A stretch of DNA of 64,000 bases from contig NC_090712.1 of NCBI RefSeq assembly GCF_040954835.1, positions 4,783,284-4,847,283 on the forward strand, in the 5' to 3' direction. The position numbers and the translations under genes were made by a program. Below the pieces are notes generated by a model. It did no database searches. It had not been told where the DNA came from and saw nothing but the letters and a program-made list of their open reading frames with translations. How positions within the stretch are numbered: the first letter of the stretch is position 1; the number at the start of each line of letters is the position of its first letter. This DNA is from Lepisosteus oculatus (taxonomy: Eukaryota > Chordata > Actinopteri > Semionotiformes > Lepisosteidae). Of the stretch, positions 21,501-53,100 are shown one piece after another.

Positions 21501-24500
21501 TCTGCATGATATAATGGGAAATCATTGGTCATTGGTTTTCTGTGTCCCGGGTCGAGAGTACCTGAGCATGAATGCAAGGCATTTCCAAATGTTATCTTCT
21601 GTTGACCAGAATCGTCACTGAGGCTGATTTTCAGCCTGTCCCATCTGCGTGCTAAAAACCGCTGTGTCTTATTATTCTTGCTGTTAAGGGCCCCCAGTGG
21701 GAGAGTTGTCTCCTGACAGGGTAGAGCTGTTGAGAACTTGGCAGGGCAATGTTGTCTTTTTTTTTTTTTTCACGCCTTGCTCACATGAAGAGGCACGCTT
21801 GAGAACAGACATGGAAGAGCCTGGGTATTACCCGAGCGCAAGTCTGTACGCCACACGCATGTATATTTAGATGGTTGTGAGGTTCCATTAGCTCGCCCAT
21901 AAGGAGCATGGCTGGCTGTCACTGGGAAACTTTGTGAAATAGAGAAGGTTTATTTATATCATGTTCTATATGGCAGCTTGTAATACCTGCAATGTCATCA
22001 TTTGCAGTAATGTGATAAGGCCCAGCCCCTGCTACACTCTTTATGTCTGAATGTTTTGTCCTTGGCACAACATTGATGGAAGTGATCACTGCGTTCATGA
22101 ACGAATCTGGAGGCTGCCGTTGGGGCGCTAGACACTGCACCATTCCCCCACCCCCACCCTCCCCCAAGTGGATGTGTTCCTGGAAAAACCCCATCTCCTC
22201 TGGTTCTTGATCTACCTAGGCTGTTAATCAATAAAGGTGCTGGATCTGTAGTTAAATACAGTTCTTGGCTCTCGCGCTCGGTTGGCATTTCCTGTGCCTA
22301 CCTTCTTCCAGATGTAATAGTGTTGTTCCTGTCTGTCAGGCCACTGATAATTTAAGAGTTTTGGAGTTCTTAGTGTTTCTTTGCAAAAACCCACTCTCCC
22401 TCTGGAGCGTTTTCAAAAGCAGGAAGTTTAATTAGCCCAAGTGGTTCTAAAGGCCCTGTTAGTGAAAACTCAAGGAGGAGAGAGGATTGAGAACGATGGC
22501 TTTTAAAAAAACCCATGAGCACTTAAGTCCCGTTTTTGCCTCCTCCCGGGGTGGGTGACGGGTCATGAGAGCTGACATGTGAAGAAGCAGTGGTGTGGAC
22601 AGGCTCTGAAGTCACTCTGGATCATGTGCCGGGGCTGGGGGATGGTTTGCACATATTTGCTGCAAGGCATTGGCGAGCCAAGATAATTGGATAATGACAC
22701 GTATACAAGCGAGCCCTACCGCTTATTACTGCAACAAATTTCCCTGTTGCTCCCGAAAATGAGAATAGTTTGGTTTTTTTTTTGTAGTGGGAACACTGGT
22801 GTTTTATTGCGCGCGTGTGGCACGGGTACATTTATTTTGCCAGTTCACGTTGGCCAGACGGACACGGGGAGTACTGTGGGCGCTGGGCCCTCGAGAAAGC
22901 CGTTGCACGCGGGCGTACCGCCCCGATGAGCGTGCGAGAGGGGGCCCGTGGGCCGGGCTGTCGTCAGGCGCTGCAAGTGGAGCTCGGTCACCCTTGGACC
23001 TGGCCATCAATTGGGTTGCAGTGCCCAGCAGTTGGCAGACCATTATACAACTCTGCCTCACATTCCTCCCAGTGGACTGCACAAAACCTGAATTCATAGC
23101 TTAAGAGGATTTGGCCCCGCTGCTCCACATGAGCTGTTGCTCTAACATACTAATGATACGACAGTATTGTTCTCCTAATAAACGAGGCATGTAGGTTTGT
23201 TCCCTGTGAATTGTTCTTAATATTCATCAGGCTGGCTTATTCAAGCGTTGGTTACCTCATCACCTGTGCCCACGTAGTTCCCTGGCCAGTGCAGTGCTTT
23301 AGTGGCTTGTGGTAGGAGTGTCGCAGTTCGTTATGATCTATAAAATGATGCCTAAAATATCGGAGTAGTATCAAATCTGTGTAATGTGTAAAAACTTGTA
23401 TAAATAATTTTGTTTGTATGACGTTTGGTATAGCTTTTTAGTTTCGCTATATCAGTTATTTAAATACCCAAGTACAAGTGTCATCTTAATTTTATTGATC
23501 CCGTTTTGGAATAGTACTTAAATGGGAGTTCTTTAATGAAGTCCAGGTGCTCCTTAATTTCAGGTCTGTGTTGTAATGTGTCCGAATACTTGTAATGTTT
23601 CACACTTTTGTCAAAATTAGAGCAGACCTAAACAATGACTGTTTTTTCTCTTTCCCCAGGGCAAAGACTCTATAGTGCTTTGATTGTGCTGAAATCAAAA
23701 AAGAATCTTTTGTTGGAACTGGACGTGGTAACTGCAGAGTTGTATTTATTATCTGGGAACTGAGTTAGAGAGAGAGAGCGAGCTCCGTTCATTTGCTTCC
23801 CGATTCCTGGTCTCGGCGAGTGCTCCTCTGATGTGTGGATTGTTGCCTGCTTGTGTAGGCTTTTCTTTCTTAAACTTGCAACCAGCCAAGAAATGTAGCT
23901 ACTGAGACAGTCTAGAGTCACGTATGAGCAGGCAAGGTTGTTTCAAGGCAAATGAGAGCTAAAATAATTCTATTAAATGCTGATTATAGACTAGTCATCT
24001 GTCATGATCTCGGGACTCCAGAAGTCTAGAATCGGCAGGCTGGCAGTGTATCCAGGATAGCTCCAACAGAGAAACCTTGTGCTAGCACGTGCAGTGCAGT
24101 AGAAAAAGGTGACATTATTATAATTTTTTTTTTTGGGGTGTTCCAGATGTGAGCGGTGTGGAACGGCTCTCCCTCAACTCGGACGGCTGGCCGCTGAACG
24201 GCGGCGATGTCCCCATGAAAGAAGCCCGGCCCGTTCAGATCGTGCTGGCCCACGAGGACGACCACAACTTCGAGCTGGACGAGGAGGCCCTGGAGCACAT
24301 CCTCCTGCAGGAGCACATCCGGGACCTGAACGTGGTGGTGGTGTCGGTGGCGGGGGCCTTCCGGAAGGGCAAGTCCTTCCTGCTGGACTTCATGCTGCGA
24401 TACATGTACAACGGGGTACGTACGCCGGCGACAAGCGCCCTCGGTGGCGTCGCCAGGAGCTTAAGTGCGGTGTGGCAGGGATAATAATAATAATAATAAT

Positions 24501-27500
24501 TGCTTACACTTATATAGTGCTTTTCTGGACACTCCACTCAAAGCGCTTTACAGGTAATGGGGACTCCCCTCCACCACCACCAATGTGCAGCCCCACCTGG
24601 ATGATGACGGCAGCCATAGTGCGCCAGAACGCTCCCCACACATCAGCTACATGTACCAGTGGGGAGGAGAGCAGAGTAATGTAGCCAATTCATAGAGGGG
24701 GATTATTAGGAGGCCATGATTGGTAAGGGCCAATGGGAAATTTGGCCAGGACACCGGGGTTACATCCCTACTCTTTTCGAGAAGCGCCCTGGGATTTTTA
24801 ATGACCACAGAGAGTCAGGACCTCGGTTTTACGTCTCATCCAAAGGACGGCGCCTGTTTACAGTATAGTGTCCCCATCACTATACTGGGGCATTAGGACC
24901 CACATGGACCACAGGGTGAGCCCCCCCTGCTGGCCCCACTAACACCTCTTCCAGCAGCAACCTACGCGCGTGGCATTTCTAAATGTGCTGCTTACACTGG
25001 TGGCCCCTGTTTGACTCCAGGTCAGCTGATGCCCGAGCATGAGCCAAAATCTCTTGCACACCTTTCACTGAGCTTCATGGGGATGATCTACAGCGTATTG
25101 ACCAGCACCGAACACTTACAGTACTGGATTTGTGCACACTCTCCAAAAACACATTGAGATGCGTTGTAATTGTTTCCTTTTGGTGGCCAGTTGAAGACCT
25201 ACAATGGGGTGGCAGCTGGGGTGACCAAGCTCCTCCCTGGGTTATGCCCCTGGCATCCCAGGGCTAGTCCTGCTTCCGATCGTACGCTCTATCCATAGTT
25301 CACGCTGGGTTTCCGAGTCATCACAACTAATTGCAGCATCTCTGATTGGATCTTAATAAATAATATTAGAATTGCTAACTTCAGTCTTTGTCGTGGTCTT
25401 GGTAGAGTGCTAGTTTTGCAGAGTTTGAGAATTGTCGGTTTTCTTTTTTTTTGTTAAAAAGTGTGCAGAGGCTTTAAGCATTCCCCGACGCTGGAGATGT
25501 AGGTTGTGTTTTTTTTTTCCTGAAGTTCATGAACAGCTCCTTTTGAGTTCACTGTAAGAAAAACATGTTCGTGATGAGCTTTCAAATGACCAAGAAATGC
25601 ATTTAGGTGCTCTGTAATACCCACGTTTTACGTCTTCATGCTTCTCTGAAAACGAAGACGTGGCAGGGGCGTCTGCATTTTAAAGTTGCTTGAGATGGGA
25701 GGCTGTCCTAACTTACCTGTGAGGGGCTGAGTGAAGGAAGAAGAGCTGGTTTTCCTCATGAGGAGGTGACTGGGAGAACTCCTGGCCCTGGCAGTATTTG
25801 TCAAGTCGGTGAGCTTGCAGCAGGATGTGTGGATCACTTTACAAGCTGTGATTTCTGCTTATAGGTCGGGTAACTTGGGAGGAGCTATTTTTGTATTTGT
25901 GTTAATGCTGTGAAGGAGAAACGAAATTACTTCTTGATTGATTGTCGGTGTCCTTTTAGATGTTCTTTTGATTTCACAGCAATTAAGAACGGTTAAGTGT
26001 TAAGCTATGGTCAAGTTGACATCATGGACCACTTTCCATCTTTTCCTTTTTAGTGCAAATGAAAAATAAACCCTTAGGTGCTTTGGAAATTTCGATGAAA
26101 GGTTAGGGTGTGTTTACAACAGTTTTGTTGTCCAAAACAACAGAGCACTCAATTTACTGCATCTTGTGAAAGTTTGGATGTCCTATAGTACATGAACTTT
26201 TAGCTTGTATTTACTACCAGGAGAGACAATAGGCATTTTCATTCCTACACTGCACAGAACAAATTGATACCAGGTTTTACTTTGGAGAAGCGGTGTAGCA
26301 GACTGGTAGTGCTGTGAGGGAGAATAGCTGTCGTTTGTCATGCTTGTGCTTTTTGATGTTGTTTTCCGCTGTTGGTGTTGTAAAATGCTTGTCAGAGGTT
26401 TAACTGAGGCGGCAGTCCTACTCTGTCAACAGCATGTTTAGGGCAAATGCAGTCCAAGCTGCTGGACTTATTTTTGTAGTCTTTGGTCTTTTCTCCCATC
26501 GCTTCTACAAGACTATATATAGCTCCTAGTTCTCGATGCGTAAGGTACCTCCATGCTGGGCAGAATGACAAGTGCAAAGTCACCGAGTGTCCGTGCATGT
26601 CCACTGCAGCCTGGAAACCATCCAGAATGCTGCACATGAACGTGTGGTCCAGGCCGGGGGGTTGTTTGGCAGAGCCTCTGCGATTGGCTGTCCCAACACG
26701 GGCAGGGCGGGGGCGGGCCCTCCCCACGGGGAGCCGTTATCTGCACACGCGTACGAGGCCGGCGCAACGGGAAGCGGGAGGCTTTGAGCCGTCTCCGTGT
26801 GCTTATCTCTGCCTTCTGACATCTGTTCCCTTACCCTCACGCTTTATTTTTGCAACTCCGCTTTTAAGAAAAACCAGCAAAGCTCTGTGAAATGGAAACG
26901 CGTGACAATTCCTGTCTGATATAAACGAGAGTCGGCTGTCAGGGTAGTTCACCAGCACGGCATGATAACAATATTAAATCTGAAAAGTGTCATCTCGATG
27001 CTTTTGATGGATCGCTTTCTTTCCTGCCAAGTGTAGAAAAGGTTTTATTTCAGCAAAGCGAATGTTTCTTAAAGTATCGTGGTACTGCCGCTGTGGATAC
27101 ATCCATCCCGTTCAGCAGGTTTACAGTAAGGTTTTCTGAAATCCTTGATTGTGTCTTCAGTTGTACCTGTGTGCTTCTGTAGACTGGCGTGAGTATGGGA
27201 CGCTTTGAGCCGACGCATGAATGTACACCTGGGGGACTGCTCAGCTGGGTGGTGTTGCCCGTGACGTTTAAAAGATGAATGGCTGGAGTGTGGGTGAGGA
27301 AGTGCGGGCAGACCCCTCCCACCCATTCTCCCCCGTGTGCGATCACGGTGTTCGGAGCTGCCAGCTGAGCTGTGAAAAACACGTGGCTGTTCCAAATCGG
27401 CTAGGCGTTAGTTTAACCCACACCCGTTTTCATCTATTATTAAAATTCTCCCATTTAAATAAAAGCCAGGGATGTTTGCACACAGTGAAATGTCTCATTC

Positions 27501-30500
27501 TTTCGTATTTTTAGAAGCTGTGGGATCCTAGGCCTATATGTGCAAGTTACAGATTAAATAAAATAATGTGAAAACAACCATTTTTTTTTTTAGTTATTGC
27601 AGATTGTTTGCTTATTTTTGTTTAAAACAACTGGTTAATTGCTTCCCTGGTTGAAGGTTGCTGCTCTCATGTAGTCTGATATCTAGAGATGATTATGCTT
27701 TAAACCTCAATTTAAAGCTATTAATTTCATAACAGTGTTATAAATGCAATTTTAGAAATAAGAGAGGGGCTTAGATCATGTTTTCTGGCTTTAATTTAAG
27801 ATGAATTTAAGTTTTCATTTAATCACAGTAATTATCAGTTTCAAATATGAATACAATTTGAAGTGCTAAGAGTAAGTTTCATACACATACTGTAGTTTGA
27901 AATAAGAAACTTAATTCTATGAATTAAGTTAAATCTGTTTTAAACAATGTGTTGCTGTAACATTTTATTTGTAGCAGAAATGTCCAAAGTACAGTAATTA
28001 CATAGTTCATAGTCTTGCAAAGAACGTGCAAGTTTATGCATGAATTACTTAATGAATTTGTCCTGTTTGCAGGAAATGGTACTTTTAAAATGTTCTATAA
28101 ATGATTGGGTTTTCCTCACATACACTGAAACATTATCAAATTGGGCGGAGGGGTGGCTCTGTGGCTCAGGATCTGCGCCTGTGGCTGGAAGGTTGCCGGT
28201 TCGTATCCCGCGGCCGGCAGAGGAATCCTACTCTGTTGGGCCCCTGAGCAAGGCCCTGAACCCCAACTGCTCCAGGGGCACTGACCCTGCGCTCAGCCCC
28301 AGGCTTCTCTCCCCGTGTCTCATGGAGAGCAAGTCAGGGTATGTAACCCCTGAAGAAGCCCTCGCTGGTCTTTCAGAAGAATCACAGGGCTTTCTTGCAG
28401 CCTGCTGAAATCTTTTGTAACCAGCCAATTTCTGCACAGTATGAAAGTTAACCCTATCAGGGCATATAACCTGTTTCCAGTAATTGTGTGAATTAGATGT
28501 TGGCTGAGTCCATGTAGTTCCCTGGTGTGTGTGGTTTGATTTGAGCTCTTTCTTTATGAATGCTGATGGCACAGTGCCCTCCAGTGGTACAGCTTGGCAC
28601 TGCCGATGTCTTAACATTCACAGGCCATGGTCAAGGGGCATAAATGGTTTTTGTTTTCTTTGCCTTAGAATTCCAGTTCTTGGCTGGGAGGCCATGAAGA
28701 CCCCTTGACCGGCTTCACCTGGCGCGGGGGCTGTGAACGAGAAACCACCGGCATTCAGGTCTGGAGCGAAGTCTTTGTGGTGGAAAAGCCCGATGGAAGC
28801 AAGGTGAGTCTGCCCGCAGTGAAGGGTTTACCTGTTCATCCGAAAGATCCTTTTCCGTTGGTCCCACAGTTTTACTCTTTCGTAGAACAGATAAGTGAGC
28901 TCTTAACTGCGCTTCACAGTTTTCACCATTCACTCCAGTCCACAACTGGCTCGCTTGGCTCATTCTCTTGATTTGCCAGTGAATGTGTTTGGAATCCTGT
29001 TAAAACAATGTGCATACTTCCTGTACATACTAGAGGCTGTTCATAATCCGTTTTTACCAGTTAATTTTTCTCTTATTAAATGTTCAGCCTCTCGTGTCCC
29101 TGTAATTATATTTGGCAGTGCAGAGTGTCTGCTGCAGATGTTGTGTATGGTTGGGCACGTGGTAAATGACCTTTATCTCCTTTGTAGGTTGCAGTGCTTT
29201 TAATTGACACTCAGGGGGCCTTTGACAGCCAGTCAACCATCAAAGATTGTGCAACTGTGTTTGCACTGAGCACCATGACCAGCTCAGTACAGGTTTGTGG
29301 TTTTTCATTAACTCTTCAGTATGCGCAGTTTAACTCTCATCTCCCTGTACAGAGGGGTGCAGGTAATTGCATTGTTAAAAAGCAATATTGAACCTTTTAA
29401 TCTTCAGGGAAGTGGTGTTTTAAATGGGTTAAGTGAAGAGCAGGGAGAGGTCTGTGCCTCGGTTTTTATGTTTAAATTTGTCTTTTACAGGTGTACAACT
29501 TGTCCCAGAACATACAGGAAGATGATCTTCAACATCTTCAGGTAGGTATACCCCCCCCTCCCCCCCACTATATTCATTACATATTCATGCAAACACTGTA
29601 AATATAGGATGCAAACTTGATTTAGTTAGACTCCAAGCAAAGTATTGGAGAGCGCTGTGTTAATCACAAGTCACAAATTTGCTAACTACTGTTGTGCTTA
29701 AGGTAGGTTATTGAAACTGGGTAGTGGGAAAACAGGACTCCAGAATCCATCAGGTTTTTGAAATCTCTTCAAAGATCTACAGATCTAGATCTTTTTTAAA
29801 AAAAATCATTTAAGATGAAGCTCATCATTTGTTCTGTTATTTGTCTATAGCTCTTTACGGAATATGGACGCCTTGCTATGGAGGAAATCTACAAGAAACC
29901 CTTTCAGGTATGTTTTTCTCGGATTGCCTTTGGTGATGAACATGTATCTTATTTTTCAGTAACAATCTAGTACAAGAAGAGGTCATGATGAGCCACAGCC
30001 TGTCCTTGCAGACATGGTGCTGAGTTATGGCTGGCTGGGGATGTGGGCCGGTTAACCTGGCTGGCACGCCTTTGGATTGTGGCAGGAACCCCCCCGGTCA
30101 TGTGACAAGCATGCAGACGCCACACAGAAGGTGTGAAGGCCCAGGCTGAAGTCAAAACCATGAGCGGGCGACCATGCTCTGGCACCTTCAGCCCTTAAAT
30201 CATTAGGCTTGCTTACATTCCTCATGCATCATGCACGGTCTCTAAAATACAAATTATTCCTTTAGCAGAAAAAAATTGCCAACATTTTTGATGGTTGTAT
30301 CAAACCTTTTCTTTCAAATAATTCTTCAAAATACACTTTTCAGATTTTTTTTTCTTTGAGCCCAACTTTTATTCCTACCTGGAGAGTCAAATCTTCCCTT
30401 CCTACGAGCTGGGAGAGTTTAGGAGAGTGCATTTTTTTTTGTCAATTTGAAACATGAGCATTGATGCTCCATCTTCATTGTCTCCCCCCAGAAACTTATG

Positions 30501-33500
30501 TTTCTTATTCGAGACTGGAGCTATCCATACGAACATCCTTACGGCCTGGATGGAGGAAAGAAGTTTTTGGAGAAGAGATTGCAGGTGAGTGCAACATCCT
30601 TTTTTTTTTAAAAAAAAAAGTGGTTTGTTGCATAATTTGGGGTGGGCAACTGGAAATGTCTGAGTTTCCTATACATCGGGGAGCACAGTGAAATCGTAGC
30701 TGTTTCAGAAGAGTTGCTGAGAGGCTGAGGCATGGATTGCAGAGTATTTATCAAGGAGCCCTGCTCTCTGTTAGTTGCTTAAGCCCTGCTTCAGCTTTCA
30801 TTAACCTACATAAGGCTACGAGTGAAATGGCCTCCAAGCCAGACTTGCCATTGGTTATTTTGTGGGATAAAAAGAGCATCTTGTGCTGGAGGGTACTGTG
30901 TGTGCAGCAGGCAGTAGGGGTTACCCATCTGTCAAGGCTTCAGAATAGCTCTTCAGAGGGTTTTCAACGTTCGCCTCCTGTCGACAGGTGAAGGAGAACC
31001 AGCATGAGGAGCTCCAGAATGTAAGGAAACACATCCATTCTTGTTTCTCCGACATCGGCTGTTTCTTGCTGCCACACCCTGGTCTAAAAGTTGCCACTAA
31101 TCCCCACTTTGATGGAAGATTAAGAGGTATGGCATTCACATTCACCCCAAAATTCATCAAGCCCTTCGTCTGCTTCCACTCTAAGCGAGAAGGAACTGCT
31201 CTCCAGGACTTCCAGTACGTGAAGATCTTGCCTGGTCTCCACTCTGTTCCATCCGAGTCTTGTCCTTTGCACATCGAGAGCTAATTGAACTCAAAGGAAA
31301 TTACACCTTTAGCCAAGAACCATAGTCTGCAGCGAAAGGCCAGCATTATTTTGGATTTTTCACATTTATGTACAATGCAGGTGCATTTAGTTGGCTTTTC
31401 TCATTTTAAAACGTATTGCCAGTTTTGTCAATTTTTTTTATTCAATAAATTGTGTGTACCTTATCGACTTTCAATGGTGTAAAATGTATTTCCAATAGTG
31501 TTTTCTGCCTTTGGCTTACTCAAAAAATATGGGAAGGATTGTTCTCTTCTGCATGGTATGAACTTACTGGCGGCTCTACTGTGATGTTTAGATATAGATG
31601 GTGATTTCAAGAAGGAGCTGCAGTCTCTTGTGCCATTGCTACTAGCCCCCAAGAATTTGGTAGAAAAAGAAATTGGAGGATCCAAAGTGACCTGCAGAGA
31701 TCTCGTGGAGTATTTTAAAGTAAGTAAATATCATTTTTTGCCTTCATTTTAGCACCACGGATATTGTTCCTTAATGTATTTTTTTTAATCTCTAGGCATA
31801 TATCCGGATATATCAAGGAGAGGAACTCCCTCATCCCAAATCCATGTTGCAGGTAACTGGATTGTCAACTGCTCCTACACTTGTTTTTAATTTTTTTTTT
31901 AATTATACACAAATAATGCTGCAGTGAATTGATAGAATTACTTGCTTGAGATGAAGGTTATTGAGCTGTGCTTTTGTCTCTCTCCCCCACATACTCAACT
32001 ACTTACACTCACTGGAGAAAATCCTAGGAACCTCCTTCATCCAATGTTGGCATATTTGCAGCCTAGTCCCATTCATCCCACTCTGGGATGAGGGTAGCGG
32101 GTGTTTCGGATACTGGTTTTCAGTAGGGTTGACATGGGAATTCTTCAGCCAAGGGAGGTGTTGGAATCGTCTTGTCTTTTCAAGTCAAGCACATATGGTC
32201 TGCTTGCCACTGGGAGAATCTATTTTATTTGACTGGGATTTCCTCATATTTTAGCCAGTGAGTGTATGATGAACACTCTAGGTCCTCCCTTCATTTAATG
32301 GGATCAGTTTTCCCTTTTTCACAGAAAACTGAAAAACCTACTACACTATTTAGGGCATTTGTATCCACACTAAGATGTCTGCATAAAGTAGTGCCAACAT
32401 TGTTAGAAGCTTATCGATCCCAATCCCTGTATCTCATTGTCATATTTATACCCAGTTGTGAACTACTCTTAATCTTTTATTGGTTATTTTACTGCACAGT
32501 AACAACAGACATGAAAGTTTATTATAGGAACAGATTGTGCAATCAAGAATGTTGCGTGAATTTCAGGTGCATTTGTGAAAATGACAGAAGATCATCCTAT
32601 AGTCCGAAAGGATTGTCTGCACTTTGAATAACATTTCACAGTCCCCGTATTTCCCGCAGAAACCCCAGGACGGAACAATTCCATCAAACACCAATCCAGT
32701 CTTGAGGTTTATTCGGGTCTAAATTGTGGACTGTCACTTGTTGAAAATGGACGATTACAGTGTCCTGGTGCGGCAGGTAATGAAGTGCTTTGTGTTCATA
32801 CCCAGGCAACTGCTGAGGCCAACAACCTTGCAGCTGTTGCAGGAGCAAAAGACGGCTACAACAAAAGCATGGAGCAGGTAGGCATGTCCTGGCTTTGCAG
32901 CAGTTCTGAAGATGCTCTTTGCAGCTCTTGATGGACGTGCTTGATTAACGCCGCAATCCGATGAACCTTAAGTGCAGGCACACCGTAAAAAAACAAAACA
33001 ATCGTGTAGCGCCTTGAAAATAAACTGCAATTAAGTGGAGGTTCTAAGGTCAATAATCTCCTTTTCACTAATCCGATAGATGCCTTAATTTAGAGTCTAT
33101 TGCACCTCACACTGGAGTGTTTTAAATCATGTATAACGTTTACCTGACCTTACTTTTGACTGAGGAAAAGGCTTGTCCATTGAATGAGGTTCTGGCTTTA
33201 GCTCAAGAGGAAATAAGCATATAGGAGAAATTCCGGAGTCCTTTACCCCCAAATGACTGCGGTCGATCTGACACCGGTTGGGTCACCTGCTGGAGGGAAT
33301 GGCACGGCTCCTGCGTGTTCCTCGAGGAAGCCGAGCGCTCCGAGGACCGCGCGACTCGCTCTGTCCTGGCCTAGAGTACGACCGCCGCCGCTAACCTGTC
33401 CTGTAACGTGCCCAGGTCTGCGGCGGGGACAAGCCTTACATTTCTCCCAGCGAGCTGGAGCGCAGGCACGAGGGCTTCCGGGAGTCCTGCGTCAGGCAGT

Positions 33501-35534
33501 TCTGCTCCGTGAAGAAGATGGGAGGGGAGGAGTTCTGCCGCCGCTACCAGGACCAGCTCGAGGCGGAAATCGACGAGGCCTATGCAAACTTTGTCAAGCA
33601 CAACGACAGCAAAAACATTTTCTTCGCCGCCCGCACACCAGCCACTCTGTTTGCCGTTATGGTGGCCATGTACATCGTCTCAGGAGTGACTGGTTTTATT
33701 GGGTTGAACCCGGTAGCGACCCTTTGTAACCTCATCATGGGAGTAGCTCTTGTGTCCTTGTGCACCTGGGCGTACGTGAAGTACTCGGGAGAGTTCCGAG
33801 AAGTGGGGATGCTCATCGATCAGCTAGCGGAGACCTTATGGGAGCAGGTGGGTGTCAGCTGTTCTTCCGTTGTCCTTTCTGACTTTGGATTCCCGCTCAA
33901 GATCGAGGCGAGGTAATTGTTTTCGGGAGAAGTGTCCGAGTGGATTGCTTCGGCTGTTATTAAACAGTCACTTGAACTTCTGCAAGATTTTTCGTGAGAA
34001 TGTATGAAAGTGACGTTTGTGAGGAAATGCATCTTAACCCAGGTAGTAGGTTATTCTTATATAGTGTATGAGGTAAGCTGCTGTAAAGACCATTTAAGTT
34101 GAAGCCAATTTACTCGTCTTGCATCTGTCCTGTTGAATTCAGCTTTGCAACCTGCTTTTGCTTCATAAACAATGAACAATGTTTTCCATCTTTGTACACC
34201 AAAATCAGAGTTCACAAATGTTGTAGAAACACTTATATTTGGTTAGAACTGCATCTCCAGTGGTTTTAGTGTAAGAATCATGCAAAGCAAAGTAGTACAT
34301 TAAGATGAATGCCTTGCCCAGTCCACTGGAAGATAAAACTACACCACGCCTAGGCGTACTTTGGAAGGCACGGTTTTCTGCACCTTTTTGCCTTCAGACT
34401 TCAGAAGATCTCCAGAATATTAGGAAACTAGTTGATGTAACTTGACCAGTTTATCTGAGAATTTCTAATCCAGTGTTCCATTTTGACTGATTTTGGTTTA
34501 CAGAATAATTCCCTCTCCCCTTCAACCTTTTTGTGTGCTGCTGGCCTCTTGGGGGGGTTTTGCAGTGCAGTTAACCTCTCGCAAATTAGAGAGAGCTTGA
34601 TCCAAGATCCACACATTTCAGTGATGACATGAATTGCTGCTTGCCTGATTTGTCGGTCTCTTTTGACATTTCCCTGCTTTAAATCCTAACCTTTCTCTTA
34701 TTCTAACCCTGTTCTTGCTTCTTTTCCTTTGCTACACAGAGGACTCCCAGAAAGGTGAGACAGGATGGCACATCCCACCCTTGCTTTTTTCCTTGCTTCA
34801 ACTTTATTTGGTTTTCTTTAACATGTCTGCTGCTAACTTGACCCATTCCCTCTTTTAGGTGTTTTCCAAGCTGTTTGAATTGTTGAGAAGTCGAATGGCA
34901 AGGCGTTCTTTTGTACCTGCCACGCGAAAGAGACTGTCCTCAACCAACAATAACAAGAAGAAAAACTAGCTGTTTTTTAGTTTTTGGCTTTGTTCTCGAG
35001 CTGGGTGTTCGTCTTTTATTTTTATAAAGTACATTGTCAGCGCTGTGGACAGGCCAAGCAGGTCTAGATAAATACTGTGCAGACTACTTGGCTCACACCA
35101 CATGTAGAGTACAGGTTTGCACCTAGATCTTTTGAACTGTTTTTTTTTAAAGAGGTTTGGGGGACAGTTGGTGGGAGTGGGGTGGATGTTCTGGTTATTC
35201 TTGTGTGATCTTCACATCAAACTTCTCATTGCCATCGTTTACTTTTTTTAATTTGAGTAAAAAGGTATCTTTTATAAGTAAATGTTTTATTTTCTTACCG
35301 TTTCTGTTTTTTCTTCATTCATGTCCAGATTTACTTTGTTTTGGTTTTTTTTCCCCTCTGAGTTTAGCCTCGTTTTACCATACTCTTTTCCTGTCGCACA
35401 TTCTCACTTTTCAGGTTTTGAAGCCCCTGAGTGATCATGTTATGGAAGACAACATGAGACAGACTGTGGCCAACCCCATCAAAGCTGCAATAGCAGGGCA
35501 GGTCACCCAGCACGCCAAGTTAAAGGCACACTGA
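15537..35534 (+). CDS. atl2: atlastin-2, ER-fusion GTPase (13 coding exons, 576 aa)
   Basis: Membrane-anchored dynamin-family GTPase that tethers and fuses ER tubules. Coding exons: 15537-15609, 24147-24415, 28669-28803, 29188-29292, 29491-29541, 29851-29907, 30492-30584, 30988-31126, 31592-31719, 31796-31852, 32806-32877, 33416-33847, 35415-35534. All junctions are GT-AG and the phases agree, giving 576 residues (human ATL2 is 583 from memory). The P-loop GAFRKGKS is at residues 94-101, the G3 motif DTQG at 166-169 and the atlastin-type G4 RD at 237-238. The three-helix middle domain follows, then two membrane segments (about 469-489 and 494-514) forming the ER hairpin, and a C-tail ([16 protein letters not shown]..). 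Family assignment to ATL2, not ATL1 or ATL3, rests on [16 protein letters not shown] and the C-tail. The short, divergent N-terminus ([11 protein letters not shown]) is the usual variable part. An alternative C-terminus lies at 34740-34969. Confidence 0.95.
15610..24146 (+). other. atl2: atl2 intron 1 (8.5 kb)
   Basis: It begins with the CpG island. It contains short GC-rich patches at about 17.75-18.35 kb and 22.8-23.0 kb, a degenerate dispersed repeat (18405-18680) and a (GT)n(AT)n tract at about 17611-17630. Open frames in the GC-rich patches (for example 17605-17988 minus) do not resemble a protein I know. No exon is evident. First introns of this kind often hold regulatory elements, but none is identifiable here. 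Confidence 0.6.
18405..18680 (+). repeat. degenerate copy of a dispersed fish repeat
   Basis: The order of words AAGAACAGG.., GAGGAGGCCATTTGGCC, AGCAGCCGATTGATCTGATCC, GAATGCTCTTTCGGC, and GGTTAAGTTCCTTCAGCCTGTC, then CACTATAGGA, matches a common interspersed repeat of fish genomes that I recognise from memory (GAGGAGGCCATTCGGCCC ... CTTAGCCTGTCAGTATAGGA). It is divergent and non-coding. Its class (LINE 3' end or SINE) is uncertain. Confidence 0.5.
24481..24963 (+). mobile_element. complete-looking dispersed repeat with (TAA)n start
   Basis: It starts with a short (TAA)n run, then TATATAGTGCTTTTCTGGAC, CAAAGCGCTTTACAGGTAATG, a CACCTGGATGATG module, a GCCAGGACACCGGGGTTAC module and a tail ending CTTCCAGCAGCAACCT. 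Degenerate relatives of different parts occur at 14414-14560, 45058-45400 and 59628-59760. I recall this family as abundant in several fish and in coelacanth. It is non-coding and lies only 65 bp after the splice donor of atl2 exon 2, apparently without harming that donor. Confidence 0.65.
28146..28345 (+). mobile_element. tRNA-derived SINE, copy 2
   Basis: The head carries GGTGGCTCTGTGGCTCAGG (A-box region) and the B box GGTTCGTATCC. The body has GAGCAAGGCCCTGAACCCC and AACTGCTCCAGGGGC, and the copy ends near TCTCATGGAGAGCAAGTC. It is the same family as 5690-5873, on the opposite strand. It sits in atl2 intron 2 about 320 bp before exon 3. Confidence 0.75.
31986..32600 (+). other. atl2: middle of atl2 intron 10, containing a MITE
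   Basis: Intron 10 (31853-32805) is one of the few introns here with a clear insertion (32004-32266). The rest is AT-rich sequence without a recognisable coding exon. Confidence 0.5.
32004..32266. mobile_element. TA-flanked MITE with terminal inverted repeats
   Basis: The left end TACACTCACTGG (32004-32015) and right end CCAGTGAGTGTA (32255-32266) are perfect inverted repeats. The similarity continues inward for about 15 more bases with roughly five mismatches. If the outer TA is the target-site duplication, the element itself is 32006-32264, about 259 bp. This is the structure of a non-autonomous DNA transposon, plausibly of the Tc1/mariner group. No transposase is encoded. Confidence 0.65.
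34740..34754 (+). CDS. atl2: atl2 15-nt alternative microexon (RTPRK)
   Basis: AGGACTCCCAGAAAG is preceded by a pyrimidine-rich tract ending ctacacag and followed by a good donor (gtgagaca). It is in phase 0 and would add RTPRK after the WEQ that ends exon 12, just before the alternative last exon at 34859. Short basic in-frame microexons like this are typically regulated in neurons; that regulation is inference. Confidence 0.65.
34859..34969 (+). CDS. atl2: atl2 alternative last coding exon (basic tail ending KKKN)
   Basis: After the acceptor ccctcttttag the phase-0 frame reads [16 protein letters not shown], then a basic stretch with [10 protein letters not shown] and KKKN, and stops at 34967-34969 (36 residues). 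From memory it resembles the known human ATL2 isoform 2 C-terminus, which also starts VFSKLFE. Used with the microexon it gives 578 residues; without it, 573. Lysines at positions -3 and -4 fit the KKXX COPI retrieval signal. It is mutually exclusive with the canonical tail at 35415. I see no AATAAA between it and 35415, so its mRNA may run on to the distal poly(A) site. Confidence 0.75.
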   Translation: MFSKLFELLRSRMARRSFVPATRKRLSSTNNNKKKN

Positions 35535-37040
35535 GAGGCCCGATCGCAGGCGCCTTTAATCCGACTCTGTTGTAACTCGAATGCTCGTCGTAGACTGAGG
35601 ACTGTTTGAACCAAAGTTTGCTCTCTAATGTAGAATTAAGAGCTGAGCCGGCTTCACCGAATGCTGCCACCAATTCTGAAGATGCCCATCTGGCGAACTG
35701 TTGCAGTCTTTCTTTTGGTTCAAAGTGGGGGAAAGATGTTCTTGCTAAATGTGACAAGGTTGATGCGTCGCCCACTTTTTGATTAGATTGGGAATTGAGA
35801 TTTGTCCCCATGACAGTGGGACAGTGAGCGCTGGTTTAGAATTTTTTATCTCTATTGTACGCAGAATTTTATAAGTGGATTGCACTGGTTTGGTTTAAAG
35901 GGTATTTCAGGGAAAGGCAGCTTTGCAGCTGCTTTGTTTAACTCAAGCAAACCTTTGTCCTAGTGACTTTTTGTGAGCCTGTCTGGACTAAATTTAAAGA
36001 TCCTCAGTGGAAACAGATTTGCGAAGCCTCGAGCCACTACATTTTTAATAACAATTTTAGTGTGTACCAGTATTAAACATTGCATGATATCAGATCTACA
36101 CGGCACGCACAACATCAAGGTAAAGTTACTGTAATTAGAGGAAATTAATTCACAACTGTACATTGCCTTGCCTTCATAGCTGCAGACTGGCCCTAAAAGG
36201 ATTTATCAAAGAAAAGCTGTACTAAAGGTGACTTTTCTTTTTTTTTCTGTAACATAGCACTAATGTAAATTGATTATGCCAATGTTTGTGACAATTCCAT
36301 CCAAAATACATTGCCTACAAGCTCATGTCTGTACAGTTTAGATTTTTTATCAGATCTCAGAGATAGGGCATGTATATGAACTATAAATATATAAATACCA
36401 GTTTTCTATAAAGGTTTTTGTAGTTTATTGAAAAAAGATTCTGTAGTAGGCTAAAGTGCAGTTAATGTAAAGGAATGTTTTGTGGTTGGTGTAAATGTGA
36501 GAATGCTTTTTTAAACCAATGTGAAATATCTTGCCTTGGGCACTGTAATTCCACCCCTCCTGGCAAAGCAAATTGGAATGCTAGTGGAACTTGATTTCTT
36601 TATTTTTGTTGCTTTTTAAAGTTATTTCTTGTAATTTATTTTCAGTACATAAAATCAAACTATAGTAATTCATGCAGATTAAATTGGGGAAGCAAGGGAG
36701 ATCAGGTCCTATTGGGTTAGTTGTGAAATGTTGTCTTGCTTTTAAAAAAAACCTTGATTTTTATTTTGAGGTTAAATAACTTCAAAGAGGGAGTAAGGGG
36801 TGTTTTCTTGATGGAGCTTCTGGATGGTGCTTCCTGCTTGTCCCTTTTCAGTGTCATTTGATTTCTGGACAATGTCTTCTAATAAATAAGCCTTGAACAA
36901 TGTTATTTGTCCTTAAAATAGATTTTACAAGGTTCACTAGAAAAGAAAAAAGCACTTTCTTTCCCAGGGGGAAATGCTTCCTATGTGGTGATCTGCTGTT
37001 TAGTGTTTTCCCTTTTCAATAAAAGAATTCTATATTGGCC
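35535..37040 (+). other. atl2: atl2 3' UTR
   Basis: AT-rich sequence after the canonical stop with no open frame of note. It contains two poly(A) signals, at 36881-36886 and 37018-37023, the second followed by a T/G-rich stretch. The length is inferred. Confidence 0.6.
37018..37023 (+). terminator. atl2: atl2 polyadenylation signal (AATAAA)
   Basis: Canonical AATAAA about 1.48 kb after the canonical stop, with a GT-rich stretch shortly after. Another AATAAA at 36881-36886 could serve as an upstream alternative. Confidence 0.5.
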
Positions 37041-38392: not shown

Positions 38393-41300
38393 TCAGATCA
38401 AGTCCGCAACTGGAGAGAAACAAATTAAGTTAGTCAATGAGTACAGTAAACTACTAAAATATAAAAAGTTTTAGAAGCTCAATTGCATGTGTTTAGTTTT
38501 GACTTCTTAAGACAAAGTGGATTTGTATACAAATTTCCCAAGCTATGGTAGAGCTTATATAAGCAGTCCAGATCCTAGACAACTATAGCCCTGTGTGTTT
38601 ATAGGCATTTCACCTCAAGCATAAACAAAACCAAAAAATCAAACTGCAAGAAAGGATCAGATCACCTTGCTACTTAAAATGAGCTGAAGGAAAAACCCAG
38701 AAGACAGGGGTACCTTAAGGTTCTGAATTTAGACTGGTTCAAATAAATGTTTGCTACATGTTTTAAAAACAAATACATTATAAACTAAACCCAGTCTTGG
38801 GAAAACTGCCACACCTGGAAGACAAAAGAAACCCACCTCAGAGAAAAACACACAAGGGTAGAAGAACCTAATAAACCACTGTACCCCTGCTCCCTAACCA
38901 CTGCACTGCAACCAAAATCAAGCAGAAAGTTACCGTTCATCGGCATCTCGTCAATCTGCGTTGAGTAGTACTGTTCAATGTCCCGAAGGATTCGGATGTC
39001 ATCGTTCTTGACAAAGTTGATGGCAACACCCTTACGCCCATAACGCCCTGATCGTCCAATTCTGAAAGGTAAGGAGGTGCATCAGCTCCATGTTCAGGGC
39101 AAAGTTATTGAAAATAACCAATGAACAGACCAAAATGTCCAGTTTCATTTTAATATTCATGAAGAAAGAGTCCAGATGAGCACATAAGTGCATCAAATGA
39201 ATAACATCTGGTTCACACGATGGGCTACCTAAGGCCAATTCCATGATGAGGTAGAAGCCATTCCCCAAGACTGTAATGGCTATTTAAATATGCCACCTGA
39301 CACTCAATTATCAAGGGACAATACCTGTGAATGTACAATTCTCTGTTGTTGGGCAGATCGTAGTTGATAATCAGGGACACCTGGGGCACATCCAGACCTC
39401 TGGCCCAGACATCTGTGGATATGAGAACTCGGCTGAAAAAGAAAAGACATGGGTTAAAAACACTCTTCTACACCTAAGACTGGTTGACCGAGTTTTGCCC
39501 AGTGCTTTGAGGGTAGCTTAAACCTAAAGCCACAATAAACCTATACTAATCGAACCAAAAGTAGGTTCTATTATTTGAGATGACTGCCTCACAAAAAAAA
39601 AGAAGCAAAGTCACCTTTTAGATAGGTTACATACTTTAAACCAAATACACATTCCCCTGACAGGCATCGGTTAGGCAGACCATCTTGAGGAAACTAGCAA
39701 AGTAACTTCTTTACATGCCTTGCACCCGATCTGAACTCTTTCATGATGGATTCTCTCTCCTTCTGTGGCATGTCTCCATGCATCGAGGACACTGTGAAGT
39801 TGGCCTCCCTCATCTTCTCGGTCAGCCAGTCCACCTACAGTTACGACAAAAACAAGACCACAAAGAGAGTCAGTACCATATACAGGAGTCTACAACTAAA
39901 ATGCAGCTACTGTTTTGTACTAACAAGGTAATGTTAAAAATGAAAGAAGCAGATGCCATTCAAGTACCCCCAGCTGTCTGTGAGATTTTCATTATGGGGA
40001 CTGTTGAAAGAGACCAAGCAACGACTCTCTATCACTTCCGATTCCCCCAGCACTTGCACAGTCCTGGCTTTGGTGGGAAAGGTTATGGTACAGTAAGGAC
40101 TAACTTCCACTTGATCGATTACCAATTTAAAATCAAACCCTTCCCTTTTGCCATTTCTGTCCATACACCTTTCCAGACCTAAGTATACCCCACCAATAAG
40201 TCTAACTGAAGCCAGAGTTTCATGGCCACAAATTGTAATCCAACCATCATTTATTCTGAAAACTATCTGAAATCTAAGATTTAACTGGACCAAAGTGTGC
40301 TCATGACCTCTGTAAAATACTGCACGAAAAACTAAAATGTGACAAAATGCCACTGTTTCCAATCCAAAACATGTCCACTAAGCTGTTCTGCTCTTCAGAA
40401 AAGCACAAACCTTCCTCTTGGTGTTACAGAAAATGACAGCCTGCGTGATTGTCAGAGTGTCATACAGGTCACACAGCGTGTCGAATTTCCATTCTTCTCT
40501 TTCCACAGCCACGAAAAACTGCTTGATGCCTTCTAGTGTCAACTCATCACTGAAATAAGGGCAAAGGAAAAGAAACTCAATTAATATATGAGCTAAGAGA
40601 TACGTAAAGTAGTCAATTTACTTGTGAGCAGCTTTACAGCAAGACCCAAAATATGAACCCATTAAGACGAACTAAAAAAAAACTTCCTTGGTGCAACAAA
40701 TTTAAATCCGGAGAGCTCTTACCGTTTGACCAGGATTCGGATGGGGTCCGTCATGAATTTGTTGGTCATCTCCAGGATTTCATGTGGCAACGTGGCGCTG
40801 ATCAGACACACCTGTGTAGCAGGTGGCAGGTATCTGTACACATCATAAATCTGCTCTTTGAAACCTTGAAAAACAGAAAAAATAGGTTTATGTTACCATT
40901 TAAAAACCAACATTTAACACTCGATTTCAGGAAGGCCTTAAAAACCCATCTAAACAATACTGATACCCATCTATGTACATTCCTCTCAGTGTCAAGGCTT
41001 TCTATACAGGTACACAATACAATAAACCCTACATGTGTCCGAAGTGCTGTAAATAAAAGTAATTTGTTAAAAGGGATATTTGTCTTTACAAAACCATTAT
41101 CCACCAAAACTGAAAATTTGATACCATTCAGTCATATAAACTGAATGCATCCGACATTTGAAATACTCTGAATTAGGAAATTACCCACATTTTGAAAATC
41201 TACATATAACTAAGACTGGAGCATTGGGTAGCAGGTGCTGCTGGCAAGAATACAAAAAAAGGAACACTTTGTTGATGCAAGGTTCACAAAAGGGAAAGAG

Positions 41301-43880
41301 CAGCATCACTCTACCTTTGTTCAACATTTCATCGGCTTCATCAAGAACCAGCATCTTGATAGCACGGGTTCTCAGGCTCCTCCTGCGGATCATGTCTGTT
41401 GAAAGCAGCAGAAGGCAGAAACATCACAGTGAGCACCACACAGCCGGAGGCCAAATCTGAAGCCAAAAACGGTTTACAAGATGCATGCAACCCGTCGTAC
41501 TTAGGACGGACGTGCTTCTGCAAAAACCAAGTCTGGAGTAATTCATGCGTTCATTACCAAACACGCGTCCTGGGGTCCCTGCAACAACGTGCTGTCCGTA
41601 ATCCAGCTTCCGGATGTCCTCGCCGACATTTGTCCCACCGATGCAGGCGTGGCACTGCACGTTCATGTAGTCGCCCAGAGCCAGGAGGACCTAGCGAGGA
41701 TTTCAAACGAAAGTGACGGCTCCGACACGACGCTCAATTTCCCAATTCACACCGATTGAATGGAGCCCCTGTACCCACATAACCGGACACTTGAGCCTGC
41801 AGCCCATGAACACGCTAAAGCAGGGGCTGAGAGGCATTCGAGCTTCCACTTTCTTCAAAGAGACATTACCCAAGAGGCTGAGGGCAGGATGGAAGGCGGC
41901 ATTAAACTTCACTGGGAAGTTACACAGAAAAGGCTTCATTTGAAGAGGTGTTATCACAGGTCTAACTTCCAGCAAACATGTTTATCGTTCTGGAAAAGAT
42001 CTCATTTACGGGGGAACCGCAGTCCCAATCCCAGTTATTAAACCCCAGTAACAAGGTATAGAAATGCTACAGAATCTTACAAATTGAGCACAAAATCTTG
42101 AAAAAACTGAAAGTCACCATATTTTTGCCGACCCCTGGTCTTGCCACGGGCAAGAGTGCGAGTTCCCGTGAGCTGGGACGTGAAGCAGCCCTTCCTGCTC
42201 ACTAGTCACTGTAACGACTAGTGTAACGTACGCGCGAACAATTACAGGTGGTGATATACCTGTATATATACCTGCCTGTGATATAAATAGAAGATTTTAC
42301 AAGTTACTGTGTCCATTTTACTTTTATTGTGGTTTGAAACGCACTTATCAATGCTGATTTTTTCTAACCCTGAAATATAAAAACAGTGTTGCAGTTCTTC
42401 TGCAAAAGACTCTCATGCATCATGCACCACAAATTATTGAACAACATAAGAATCTGGGGCTTCAGAGAGAAAAGACGAAGATAAATCAGGAAATCCAACC
42501 TTTTGTATTTGCCCAGCCAATTCTCGGGTTGGTGCCAAGATGAGTGCTTGTGTTTCACGAACCTACGAAGTTTAGAAACAATTGTGAGGCACATTTAAAC
42601 TGAGGCAGGAAGACAATGTGGCATTACATGTCATTTCTGGTAGATGCATCACTCATCTACCGATGAAAACATCAGCTGTTACAGTGTACAACAATCATCA
42701 AAGCAATCTAGACATTTAAGCAATTCCACATATTGATGTGCAAACTTATACCGAAAGCTCTTTTCCCCATCTTCACGGGTTCTACTTAAAACTTCCAACA
42801 GTCACACCTCAAGGCTTGACAGCCAGCTGTTTGACATTTGTACATCTCCCACTCATGCATAAAGACCAAGATATTGGTGTCAAACAGTTAATCTACAGTC
42901 TGGAATGCCAATTGCACATTACAGAACGGAACATTCATAGTTCAGAGAGCTGCAGTCAACAGCTGAGGTAAAAAAGTGGGACACTACTAAAATACCTATT
43001 TCTGTATTTGATGAGCAAGTAGTAAACAAAGACAACCAAGGAATCAGATGAAAAATGGTCAAATTCTCAATGGCGCGATGCACAATTATTCCCTTCACCA
43101 TACACGTTGAGATTTTTTTTTTTTAAACTGCACTTTTCTCCCCATCAGCTCCGCCAATACCCTCAAAGGCACGAAATAAAAACACAGCTTTACCTGAATA
43201 TCCAAGCACTGCAGTACGGAGATACAGAAAGTTGCCGTTTTGCCCGTGCCAGACTGAGACCTGGAATGAACAAAAAGTCAGGTTTTCAACACCCTGCTCC
43301 AAACAGGATCGGCATGCAGACTAAACGTCTTCTTCAACGCTGAGCTTACTGTGCAATGACGTCTCTTCCTTTGATGATCTGTTTAATCGCTCTTTGCTGG
43401 ATAGCGGAGGGTTTCTCGAAACCTGTATAAAAAACATGAAACCAACACAGAACTCTATTAGAACAACGATCTCGCCAGGGAAGGCAGACTCAGGAGCGAA
43501 AACACAAACAGCTCCGCCTCCATTAACGACGTTCTTAATATTTAGCCTACTTTTCCCAATGGTAAACTACAATGAAGCATTTAACACCTCAATAAAAGCT
43601 ATGAAAAAAATCGAAATATGACCTTGTAGTCAAACCGTCTGCGCATTTCTAGAAGCTTTAATTAATGCGTGCCCATCTTCGTAGGCTTTCAAAACTGAAC
43701 AGGCCCCAGCCTTATCCCCGGCTCACCGTAAGCGTAGATGCCGCGGAGGAGGTCTTCCCTCAGGCCCATCGTATCAAAGGTTGGAGTCACATCCACCTCC
43801 TCGCTCGTCTCGAACTCCACTTTAGTCATGTCTTCCTCCTTCAGGAGTCGTTTCCTAACCGGTGCCGGGGCGGCTGCCAT
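38393..43880 (-). CDS. eif4a3: eIF4A-III, DEAD-box helicase of the exon junction complex (12 exons, 406 aa)
   Basis: The ATP-dependent RNA clamp at the core of the exon junction complex, nuclear and cytoplasmic. Coding exons (minus): 43880-43727, 43422-43350, 43260-43194, 42562-42500, 41690-41558, 41395-41315, 40864-40723, 40549-40411, 39834-39719, 39432-39325, 39061-38934, 38409-38393; total 1221 nt. The Q-motif area [10 protein letters not shown] starts at residue 52. Motif [11 protein letters not shown] is at 75-84, PTRELA at 109-114, GG at 137-138, TPGR at 158-161, DEAD at 182-185 and SAT at 213-215. ARGLD is at 333-337 and HRIGRSGR at 358-365; the end is ADLI. All helicase motifs are intact. 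The N-terminus [20 protein letters not shown], with [20 protein letters not shown] shared by vertebrate eIF4A3, separates it from eIF4A1/2. Human protein is 411 aa from memory, the difference being in the variable N-terminus. Intron 9 uses a GC donor. Exon 1 contains only this ATG in frame with a family-like start. Confidence 0.97.
42563..43193 (-). other. eif4a3: eif4a3 intron 3 with two hairpins
   Basis: It contains a perfect 8-bp stem with 7-nt loop (GGTAGATG/CATCTACC, 42640-42662) and a perfect 10-bp stem (CTGTTTGACA at 42827-42836, TGTCAAACAG at 42878-42887). Related eIF4A genes host snoRNAs in their introns, but neither hairpin shows convincing C/D or H/ACA boxes. Confidence 0.35.
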
Positions 43881-44180
43881 ATCGAGATGGGATACAAAGG
43901 AACACCTAAAGTCAAGACCAGGAACGATACTTTTCGGGCGCCGACAGCAGGCCAAACTGCAACCAAGAGACGCGTGCTAAATGACGCTAAAAAAGGGTCC
44001 AACGCAGGTAGTGACGTAGGCTGTGGAACGGAAGTCAAGTCCACCGTCATGTGACCAGAGAGCCACCAACCCGCTAACATTAGCGTTCGAGATGAACTAA
44101 TCACTAGTCTGATGAGCGTATGAGGACGCCATCTTGACTAGGTACATGCACGGTGCTTCACGGTCACCGCAACAAGTATA
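43881..44180 (-). promoter_or_regulatory. eif4a3: eif4a3 5' UTR and promoter region
   Basis: Sequence upstream of the eif4a3 ATG is richer in CpG than what lies beyond 44.2 kb. It contains a YY1-like site, CAAGATGGCGTC, on the minus strand (44136-44125). The transcription start is not visible; housekeeping genes of this kind usually start within a few hundred bases. Confidence 0.45.
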
Positions 44181-50109: not shown

Positions 50110-53100
50110 TCAGAGGATGGTGCAGAAGAACTTCTTCTCCCGGAAGGGGTTCTCGGAGGCTGGCACCGGCACGATGAGCGGGTCCTCCCGGATGTGGGCG
50201 TCGCAGTACGCCATGAGGTCCGCCGCCGCCTTGGACACCTGCGGGAGAGACCGCACGGGGGGAATAAACGCACGGAACGCTTCCATCCCGTCCCAGATCC
50301 CTGTCCTGGAGTGAGGGAAGCCTGCCTGCCGGGTACTGCCGGCGTCACGCTCCACAGCTTTTCCTAGAATTTTCCGTCGTAGCCTTCATTTACATAATCG
50401 TAAGAAAATCACAGCGAGTTGTAGAGAGTCGCAGCTCGCGCCCGTGACCGTCAGCTGTGTAGTGTGACACCCCCAGCGATTCAGTCATAGCGCTCTTAAC
50501 AGCCCCTACGACTCTGCAACTCGCTACGACAAAATCAAACTGGTGGGCTCTGTAAGACTGGTGTCTGCGACAGTCAACAGCCAATGAGCGCTCAACATGG
50601 AAGTAGAATGCGTGCAATGCCCACAATCAGTGAAGAACAATGGTGGTCAAACCGTATTGTCCACAACCAAACAAATGTGGTCTATCTTGTGTTTTTCGGC
50701 GTATCCCCTTCTTTTTTCTCGTCACAAAGGAGAGCACAGGCTACAGCAGAGGCAGCAACTGCCTGCTTGTTCTCCATGTTGTTTGTTTACTTTCGTGCAG
50801 GTGCTCCTCTTGTGCTCCACGGTGATTGGCTGCCGGAATGAGGCGACCTTGCGGTTCTTTCGCGGCGCAACAAGAGATTTGGAACCATGATGAAAAGTCG
50901 CGAGGGAATCGTGTGATTAGGCACCCCCTGCGATTCCTAGTCGTATAACTTGACACCCTCTAGGACAGGAAAGGCAGCCAGATTCAGCAACTGCAGTCGT
51001 TAAATCTCACATGCTCTCTGATTAGAAGTCGTGTCGAGTCGCGTAGTGTGACGCTGGCATAAGCAAACAAAAGGGTTCAGAATGGGCAGGGCGGCTGCCA
51101 GGGCAGCCTTTGAAAATATTAAGAAGATTGGCTTTAGAAAAAAATATAATAACAACAAAACATTTACTTTCTAGATCTGTAAACTGGGAAATTCCACATC
51201 TGCAATGACCACCTGGAGAGTACCCATTAATACAGCAGGGCGTTTCACTGAAGCAGAGCACCTTTGCTCAAGGGCATTCCCACCTGAGATCTGAGCTCAT
51301 AAAACTACAGTTACAAGTCCAGACCCCTAACTAGTGCTCCACATACACAGTCCAAAAAATGCAGTTTTATTTTTCAGTCACACAAAATTAATGGGACCTT
51401 TTGTTGTCACGACTGTGGATCCTTTTGGTTTTCTTCTTAATTAAGATCTTAGCTGCAACACAGCTTGGCACTGAAGTTTGAACAGAACCTAATTAGCTTT
51501 GCAACAACCACAATATCCAATGGTAATGCACCCTTTGTGGACGCAGTTTTGGAGAGTCTTGCAAAATGAAAATGATAATAATACTGATACTGTGAATCAA
51601 AAACATGAAAAAAGGGCACAAGGTCAGAAGTGTGCATGATCACTAGTATCATTTCCAAAATTCACACTCCTGGGTGCACAACCAGAATCATATCTTTTGA
51701 CTCTTAAGTTTTAAAGATGCATTATTAGATCAGTGGAAACCAGCACATGCAGAGTAACAATTACATTTTTAAACAGTTTGACATTACATTAAGTGGGAGA
51801 GGCCCCTGTGTAAAAAACAACTGAAGGGAAAGAGGAGCTCCTGAATTCAAACCGAAGAAGGAATTCTCTAAGTATAGAAAACTGCCTGTTTGTGACATCA
51901 TACATCCCACACCCTTGAAGGTGATTTCAAGAATTCCTGGGAATTCTGTTATAGAGACCAACTATAGCAACATTCCAGCATTCTCAGTCACCGACTGCCT
52001 GTGGAAAGAGCCGTTCCACTGTGACATTTCAGATTCCGGAGTTAAACTGCGGAGAAAGGTGTGGAAGAGGGAGACAGGAGAGGGAGCTCACTGTGTGCGG
52101 AGCAGCCAGGGAAACACTGCTGGTGAGGGTGGGTGAGGAGTCTGAGTGTGAGCGAACTGGTGCTCACTGTTGGCTCAAGAGCTGGGCACGCAGACAACCA
52201 GACGACACCCTTCTTACAGAAGACATGAGTGACATAACTCTGTGAGTGGAGCTGAAGTCTTCACAGTGACCAACAATGTGACCAGACCATACTGATCGTC
52301 CGTCTCTCCACCAAAAGCACCTCCAGTTTCAAAAGCGAAATGCCCGACACAAGCTTAGTGTGGTTGTCGCGAACATTATTTTTAATGGACTGTTAGAAAT
52401 GATGAGCCAGTGTTCCAGCTGCTGATGTGCCCTTTCGTTTCGAACTCTCGGGAGATGAAAATGCATCACGGGCGAGGAACGCCCTGCAAATACACAGGAA
52501 ACACAGCTACCGAGAAATTCCTCTCTGAAATGTGCCACAGATTTTTTTTGCTCAAACCCTGTGTGGGAGGATGTAAAATGGAGTCTGCTCCTTGATGGAT
52601 TCTGTTACCATGGCTCCCCAGCGCTTTTATTCCTATGCTTTGGTCATGTCACAGTTGGGTCAAAACCAACTTCGTCTGAAGCTCTCCCCATTTCTGCTAA
52701 ACAATAACTCCGCACCTCTTCCCTCTTCCACTCAAGGAAGCATCAGTTTGGATCATATTGCTGGAAAAAGTGTAAGTGAAGCGCTCGTTCACTCCACTCT
52801 TGCTCTCCTGCTGACTCTACATGACTACCTATGTGGATTTGGTTTGCTACAGCCCTCTGTGGCCATGAGTGACAGCACCCCTCCTTCTGAGCTGGGCGGG
52901 CGAGACGATGTTGGCGCTGCAATGCCATCAATGACAGGGGGATCAGTGTTTATTTTTAGGGACCAGGGTGGGTTTAGAAATGTATGGGAATGGGCAGATT
53001 ATTTGGGATGGGGGATTACTTCACGACATTGTTTCCTTTTAATTTTATGTTTAGCCTTCAATGGCCTGGGGGTAGAGTAGTGTGGTGGGAAAGCCTTAGG

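Follow-up and report, generated by a model that had tools for sequence, protein, structure and literature searches.

The window that we analysed is a stretch of 64,000 nucleotides from the gar Lepisosteus oculatus (contig NC_090712.1; G000:C17:4783284-4847283 in our numbering), and it carries the atlastin gene atl2. Exon 12 of this gene occupies positions 33416 to 33847 of the plus strand. Its 5' boundary, after ...GCCCAG, was set by reading the sequence and by the point at which similarity stops, and its final codons, LAETLWEQ, end in phase 0 at a donor (33847/33848, CAG/GTGGGT) that scores 9.9 bits. The exon has similarity to the atl1 and atl3-like genes, and in the PDB it hits chain 3x1d, an entry with the name Atlastin, at an E-value of 2.3e-45; we take that chain to be the Drosophila protein. 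None of the three exon-12 proteins matched a Pfam family; among three other open reading frames (ORFs) in the atl2 gene region, two matched GBP, a GTPase family, and one matched nothing. A search of the 1.2 Gb assembly with exon 12 found three atlastin loci, namely the window gene, an atl1-like locus (C8; L004) with 64% identity to atl2 across exon 12, and an atl3-like locus (C18; L005) with 47%. The name atl1 was assigned from a GSTNE insert and the name atl3 by elimination. Eleven atl2 exons as far as 33847 have matches in the atl1 and atl3-like loci, a number that, with an exon 1 still to be located, agrees with the name 'exon 12', and the three genes share the alignment column at which this exon ends. 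A search for copies from other vertebrates gave 97 pattern matches among the genome_contigs and 51 among the viral_contigs, none of them confirmed as a relative.

The window holds several other features. Two segments, 28141-28312 and 24484-24580, resemble non-exon parts of the atl1 locus and are probably dispersed repeats. The minus strand carries the exons of a DEAD-box helicase at about 38800-43980, which we take to be eif4a3, with a Helicase_C match in one of the three ORFs tried. The terminal exon of a G-protein gamma subunit, with a GGL domain, lies on the minus strand at 50110-50382 and presumably belongs to a gng4-like gene.

Downstream of exon 12, the plus strand of atl2 offers two ways of ending the protein. 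A pyrimidine tract at 34711-34739, with a TGC at -10 to -8, leads into a microexon of 15 nucleotides at 34740-34754 (AGG ACT CCC AGA AAG, encoding RTPRK), whose acceptor scores 12.7 bits and whose donor scores 10.7 bits. An alternative terminal coding exon, identified from its frame and its acceptor, follows at 34859-34969; it consists of 36 codons and a TAG stop (34967-34969), and the peptide ends in NNNKKKN, a KKxx sequence. The canonical tail exon lies at 35415-35534, behind an acceptor of 8.6 bits, and consists of 39 codons and a TGA stop, with the ending HAKLKAH, a KxKxx sequence. All of the routes from exon 12 remain open, including the one that skips the microexon and joins 33847 to 34859 in frame. 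The first-pass annotation had proposed just this arrangement, with its phase-0 junction at 33847, its 15-nucleotide microexon, its basic exon ending in KKKN and its open routes, and the arrangement proved exact to the base.

The two tails differ strongly in charge, with a net value of +10 for the alternative and +2 for the canonical one. The largest hydrophobic moment is 0.31 in the alternative tail, 0.32 in the canonical tail and 0.54 when RTPRK precedes the alternative tail; the microexon may extend an amphipathic stretch, which may bear on membrane contact. Comparison of the atl2 tails with the PDB returned matches to non-atlastin proteins only, with E-values of 0.18 or more, and a genome-wide search with the canonical tail returned only the tail itself. 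Past the tail exons, the first polyadenylation hexamers in a scan of the plus strand were ATTAAA at 36072 and 36678 and AATAAA at 36881 and 37018, so that the group spans 36072-37023. Between the two tail exons (34970-35414) the same scan found neither AATAAA nor ATTAAA and only weaker variants, such as TATAAA at 35023 and AGTAAA at 35256 and 35277.

For the scoring of splice sites we used a simple position-weight model based on consensus frequencies. On this scale the acceptor of the microexon is equalled or bettered at seven of the 63980 plus-strand positions and its donor at nine, each site itself being counted. We also collected candidate short exons, defined as pairs of acceptor and donor around 3-30 nucleotides, each with a score above 5 and with a sum of at least 16. 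The window contains 17 such pairs, seven on the plus strand (one of which overlaps the RTPRK microexon) and ten on the minus strand, and the RTPRK microexon has the highest sum of them all, 23.4, the runner-up being a minus-strand pair with 23.2. The acceptors of the two tail exons are not rare: that of the basic exon (9.1 bits) has a score that 74 positions reach, and the canonical one has a score that 102 positions reach. An acceptor-like site at 35329, proposed by no one, scores 12.0 bits and stands above both. At least 36 open codons follow 57 of the 251 acceptor-like sites of the window, which makes the open frame weak evidence for the basic exon when taken by itself. What raises this exon above chance is its match to human splice variants together with a parallel layout in the atl1 gene of the same genome.

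The C-terminal extension of human atlastins is alternatively spliced in both ATL1 and ATL2, according to passages of a recent review (PMC12312388). The same passages describe the ATL2-1 form as autoinhibited, describe the ATL2-2 and ATL2-3 forms as subject to little or almost no inhibition, and ascribe the latter two variants to Crosby 2022, Bryce 2023 and Jang 2023. This bears out the proposal of the first-pass annotation that the canonical tail restrains fusion in human ATL2. The parallel with the gar gene is close in the parts of these sources that describe the variants: the gene is the same, the junction follows exon 12, and the alternative tail is slightly shorter than the canonical one, by three residues here (36 vs 39) and by four in human, where ATL2-1 has 583 amino acids and ATL2-2 has 579 (PMC10454310, which used a probe spanning the junction of exons 12 and 13a). 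Human ATL2-3 carries the insert RSPRK (PMC12312388), and four of its five residues are identical in the gar RTPRK. The likeness to the human ATL2-2 tail was judged by junction, length and insert. As in the ATL2-2/ATL2-3 type, the gar gene has, after exon 12 and ahead of its canonical last exon, further coding sequence that joins in phase 0 and ends in a stop codon of its own. It should be borne in mind that a passage of PMC10454310 applies the name 'ATL2-3' to another transcript, one that is shortened at its N-terminus. In our judgement the atl2 exons in gar are, with a probability of about 90%, orthologous to the C-terminal splice choice of human ATL2, which has already been described and is not new.

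What is new from this genome is a matching layout of atl1 at the corresponding junction, and this provides some evidence of the age of the switch. Downstream of exon 12 in the atl1 locus a 15-nucleotide exon at L004 2382-2396 encodes GSTNE, with an acceptor of 12.7 and a donor of 11.6 bits, and the plus strand of this 9.5 kb locus offers no other candidate pair for a microexon. It is followed at L004 2875-2985 by a tail exon of 36 codons (ALYKLY...ERKKN) that ends in RKKN. The junction, the length of the microexon and the phase are those of atl2. For atl1 we found no second tail, either within 8.4 kb past exon 12 or when the genome was searched with the canonical tail of atl2. In human, GSTNE is the extra peptide of ATL1-1 (PMC12312388, in the passage on ATL1 variants), so the five-residue insert is identical in the two species, and its exon in gar lies at the junction homologous to that of atl2. 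The tails themselves offer less. An ungapped alignment of the atl1 tail with the alternative atl2 tail scores 9, a value reached in 721 of 200000 shuffles, and six residues are common to them (K-L at 4-5, S at 11 and the terminal K-K-N). When the alternative atl2 tail was tested in this way against the canonical one, 693 of 50000 shuffles reached the score; similarity between tails is therefore only modest evidence, and the case for a shared origin leans as much on position, phase and length. The atl3-like gene has a simpler end, in which exon 12 is joined over a 91-nucleotide intron to a tail exon (L005 1227-1289) that ends in KKSS, and no microexon was found in that intron. Just downstream of the atl3-like gene, at L005 ~1423-4763, lies a long CT-rich repeat stretch with many acceptor-like sites.

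The microexons of atl1 and atl2 also have a layout like that of a known class. Srrm4-dependent neuronal microexons, as described in part of PMC12626420, share with that of atl2 an in-frame position, a length of 15 nucleotides, and a UGC and pyrimidine tract just upstream. Both gar genes have a TGC with a pyrimidine tract at this place, and their layouts fit putative Srrm4-type control; TGC is weak on its own, because 60 of 268 acceptor-like sites also have one at -20 to -4. A literature search found no paper that connects ATL2 with microexons and SRRM4, and the words 'atl1', 'atl2' and 'atlastin' are absent from the main texts of the zebrafish microexon papers that were searched. The ATL2-2 form is called neuronal-specific in a passage of PMC12312388, a restriction that is not absolute, since part of PMC10454310 reports it from breast tumours and normal breast.

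The C-terminal lysines deserve separate consideration. The COPI sorting signals KKxx and KxKxx have lysines at -3 and -4 or at -3 and -5, and arginine is not accepted, according to the relevant part of PMC3521961. By this rule the alternative atl2 tail fits KKxx, the canonical KLKAH fits KxKxx and the atl3-like KKSS fits KKxx; the atl1 ending RKKN keeps the lysine at -3 and has arginine at -4, so it is not strictly dilysine. Both atl2 tails and the atl3-like tail thus agree in sequence with COPI dilysine cargo, and COPI binding is putative here. The rule, in the part of PMC3521961 concerned, is given for type I membrane proteins, from which atlastin differs in having two membrane segments and a cytosolic C-terminus. 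Strict dilysine endings occur in 37 of the 3718 ORFs of 10 amino acids or more in the window; against this background, the fact that three of the four atlastin tails have one suggests a trait of the family. The dilysine signal is thus not specific to the alternative tail, and the swap supplies no COPI-type ending that would otherwise be missing, given the canonical KxKxx and the atl3-like KKSS. At most, the swap would exchange one dilysine class for another.

The layout of atl2 could in principle have other explanations. The splice-like sites might be decoys or relics, persisting around exons that are unused in this species or that are only noise, and a sceptic could point to the weak hexamers that follow the basic exon directly, to its unremarkable acceptor and to the many sites in the window with an open frame as long. 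The first rank of the RTPRK pair among the microexon-like pairs of the window, the agreement in sequence and phase with the human variants (as far as the partial accounts of these go) and the atl1 twin with its GSTNE exon tell against such an explanation, and we regard it as highly unlikely. A different proposal accepts the exons as genuine and reads the swap mainly as a trafficking switch, in which the KKXX of the alternative tail adds a COPI retrieval that is missing from the canonical form. The lysines at -3 and -4 do obey the rule given in PMC3521961 (again for the part concerned), but so do those of the canonical tail at -3 and -5, and the atl3-like KKSS, the near-dilysine RKKN of atl1 and the scarcity of such endings among window ORFs make them look like a feature of the family. 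Moreover, a literature search on atlastin with dilysine or retrieval terms gave no title on such an atlastin signal among the matches listed, and a listed paper that has the word atlastin uses it in its discussion only. We rejected the dilysine switch as the main meaning of the swap and consider it very improbable. The first-pass annotation had expected the swap to alter both regulation and ER retrieval; escape from autoinhibition agrees with the human ATL2 variants, in the portion of the review that covers them, and the retrieval part finds no support, since the canonical tail ends in KLKAH.

If the atl2 exons are thus read as the counterpart of the human splice choice, one may still ask whether the microexons of atl1 and atl2 had separate origins at their common junction, a question that concerns the age of the arrangement and not the identity of the atl2 exons. 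Only six of the 15 bases are identical in the two microexons, and RTPRK and GSTNE share no residue in register. The human inserts also act oppositely on autoinhibition in the account given in passages of PMC12312388: absence of RSPRK modestly strengthens inhibition in ATL2-2, and absence of GSTNE weakens it in ATL1-2, so that in ATL1 the insert goes with the stronger inhibition. A linker as short as this may change fast, however, and coincidence would have to account for the same junction, length and phase and for a 36-codon tail ending in KKN in each gene, so we find independent origin somewhat unlikely. The shared layout suggests that the combination of microexon and tail probably predates the split of ATL1 and ATL2, in keeping with the suggestion of the first-pass annotation that the switch may be old. 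We can also imagine a fuller history, in which the alternative atl2 tail and the only tail found in atl1 descend from one exon that existed before the duplication, when the 15-nucleotide microexon and the choice of two tails were already present, and in which, in this lineage, the exchange of KxKxx for KKxx sets the preference for beta'-COP or alpha-COP as well as the restraint on fusion; taken as a whole, that history is a long shot. Work by Bryce in 2023 is said to have analysed atlastin C-termini across species and to have argued that autoinhibition arose in vertebrates, in which case conservation in a fish would be largely expected.

The splice choice in gar atl2 probably works as follows. 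Splicing of exon 12 to 35415 would yield the canonical tail, the counterpart of which keeps fusion in check in human ATL2-1. Splicing to 34859, either direct or through the microexon, would yield a tail with a strong basic charge, 36 residues long or 41 with the microexon, in an isoform comparable to human ATL2-2 or ATL2-3, and this isoform would be expected to show little or no autoinhibition. The choice would then lie between a tail of low charge with an inhibitory human counterpart and a highly charged one whose human counterpart inhibits hardly or not at all. The sequence itself shows the splice anatomy and its counterpart in atl1; the use of these transcripts, the loss of autoinhibition and neural Srrm4-type control are what we infer from the human work combined with the sequence layout.

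Our findings make dilysine retrieval an unlikely reason for the tail swap in atl2. The sharing of the layout by atl1 and atl2 helps to date the ATL2 isoform switch, since it suggests that the control of ER fusion by splicing is probably older than the split of the two genes. A fish that carries both forms of the atl2 tail may also serve as a model in which to test how the choice of tail releases atlastin from autoinhibition.
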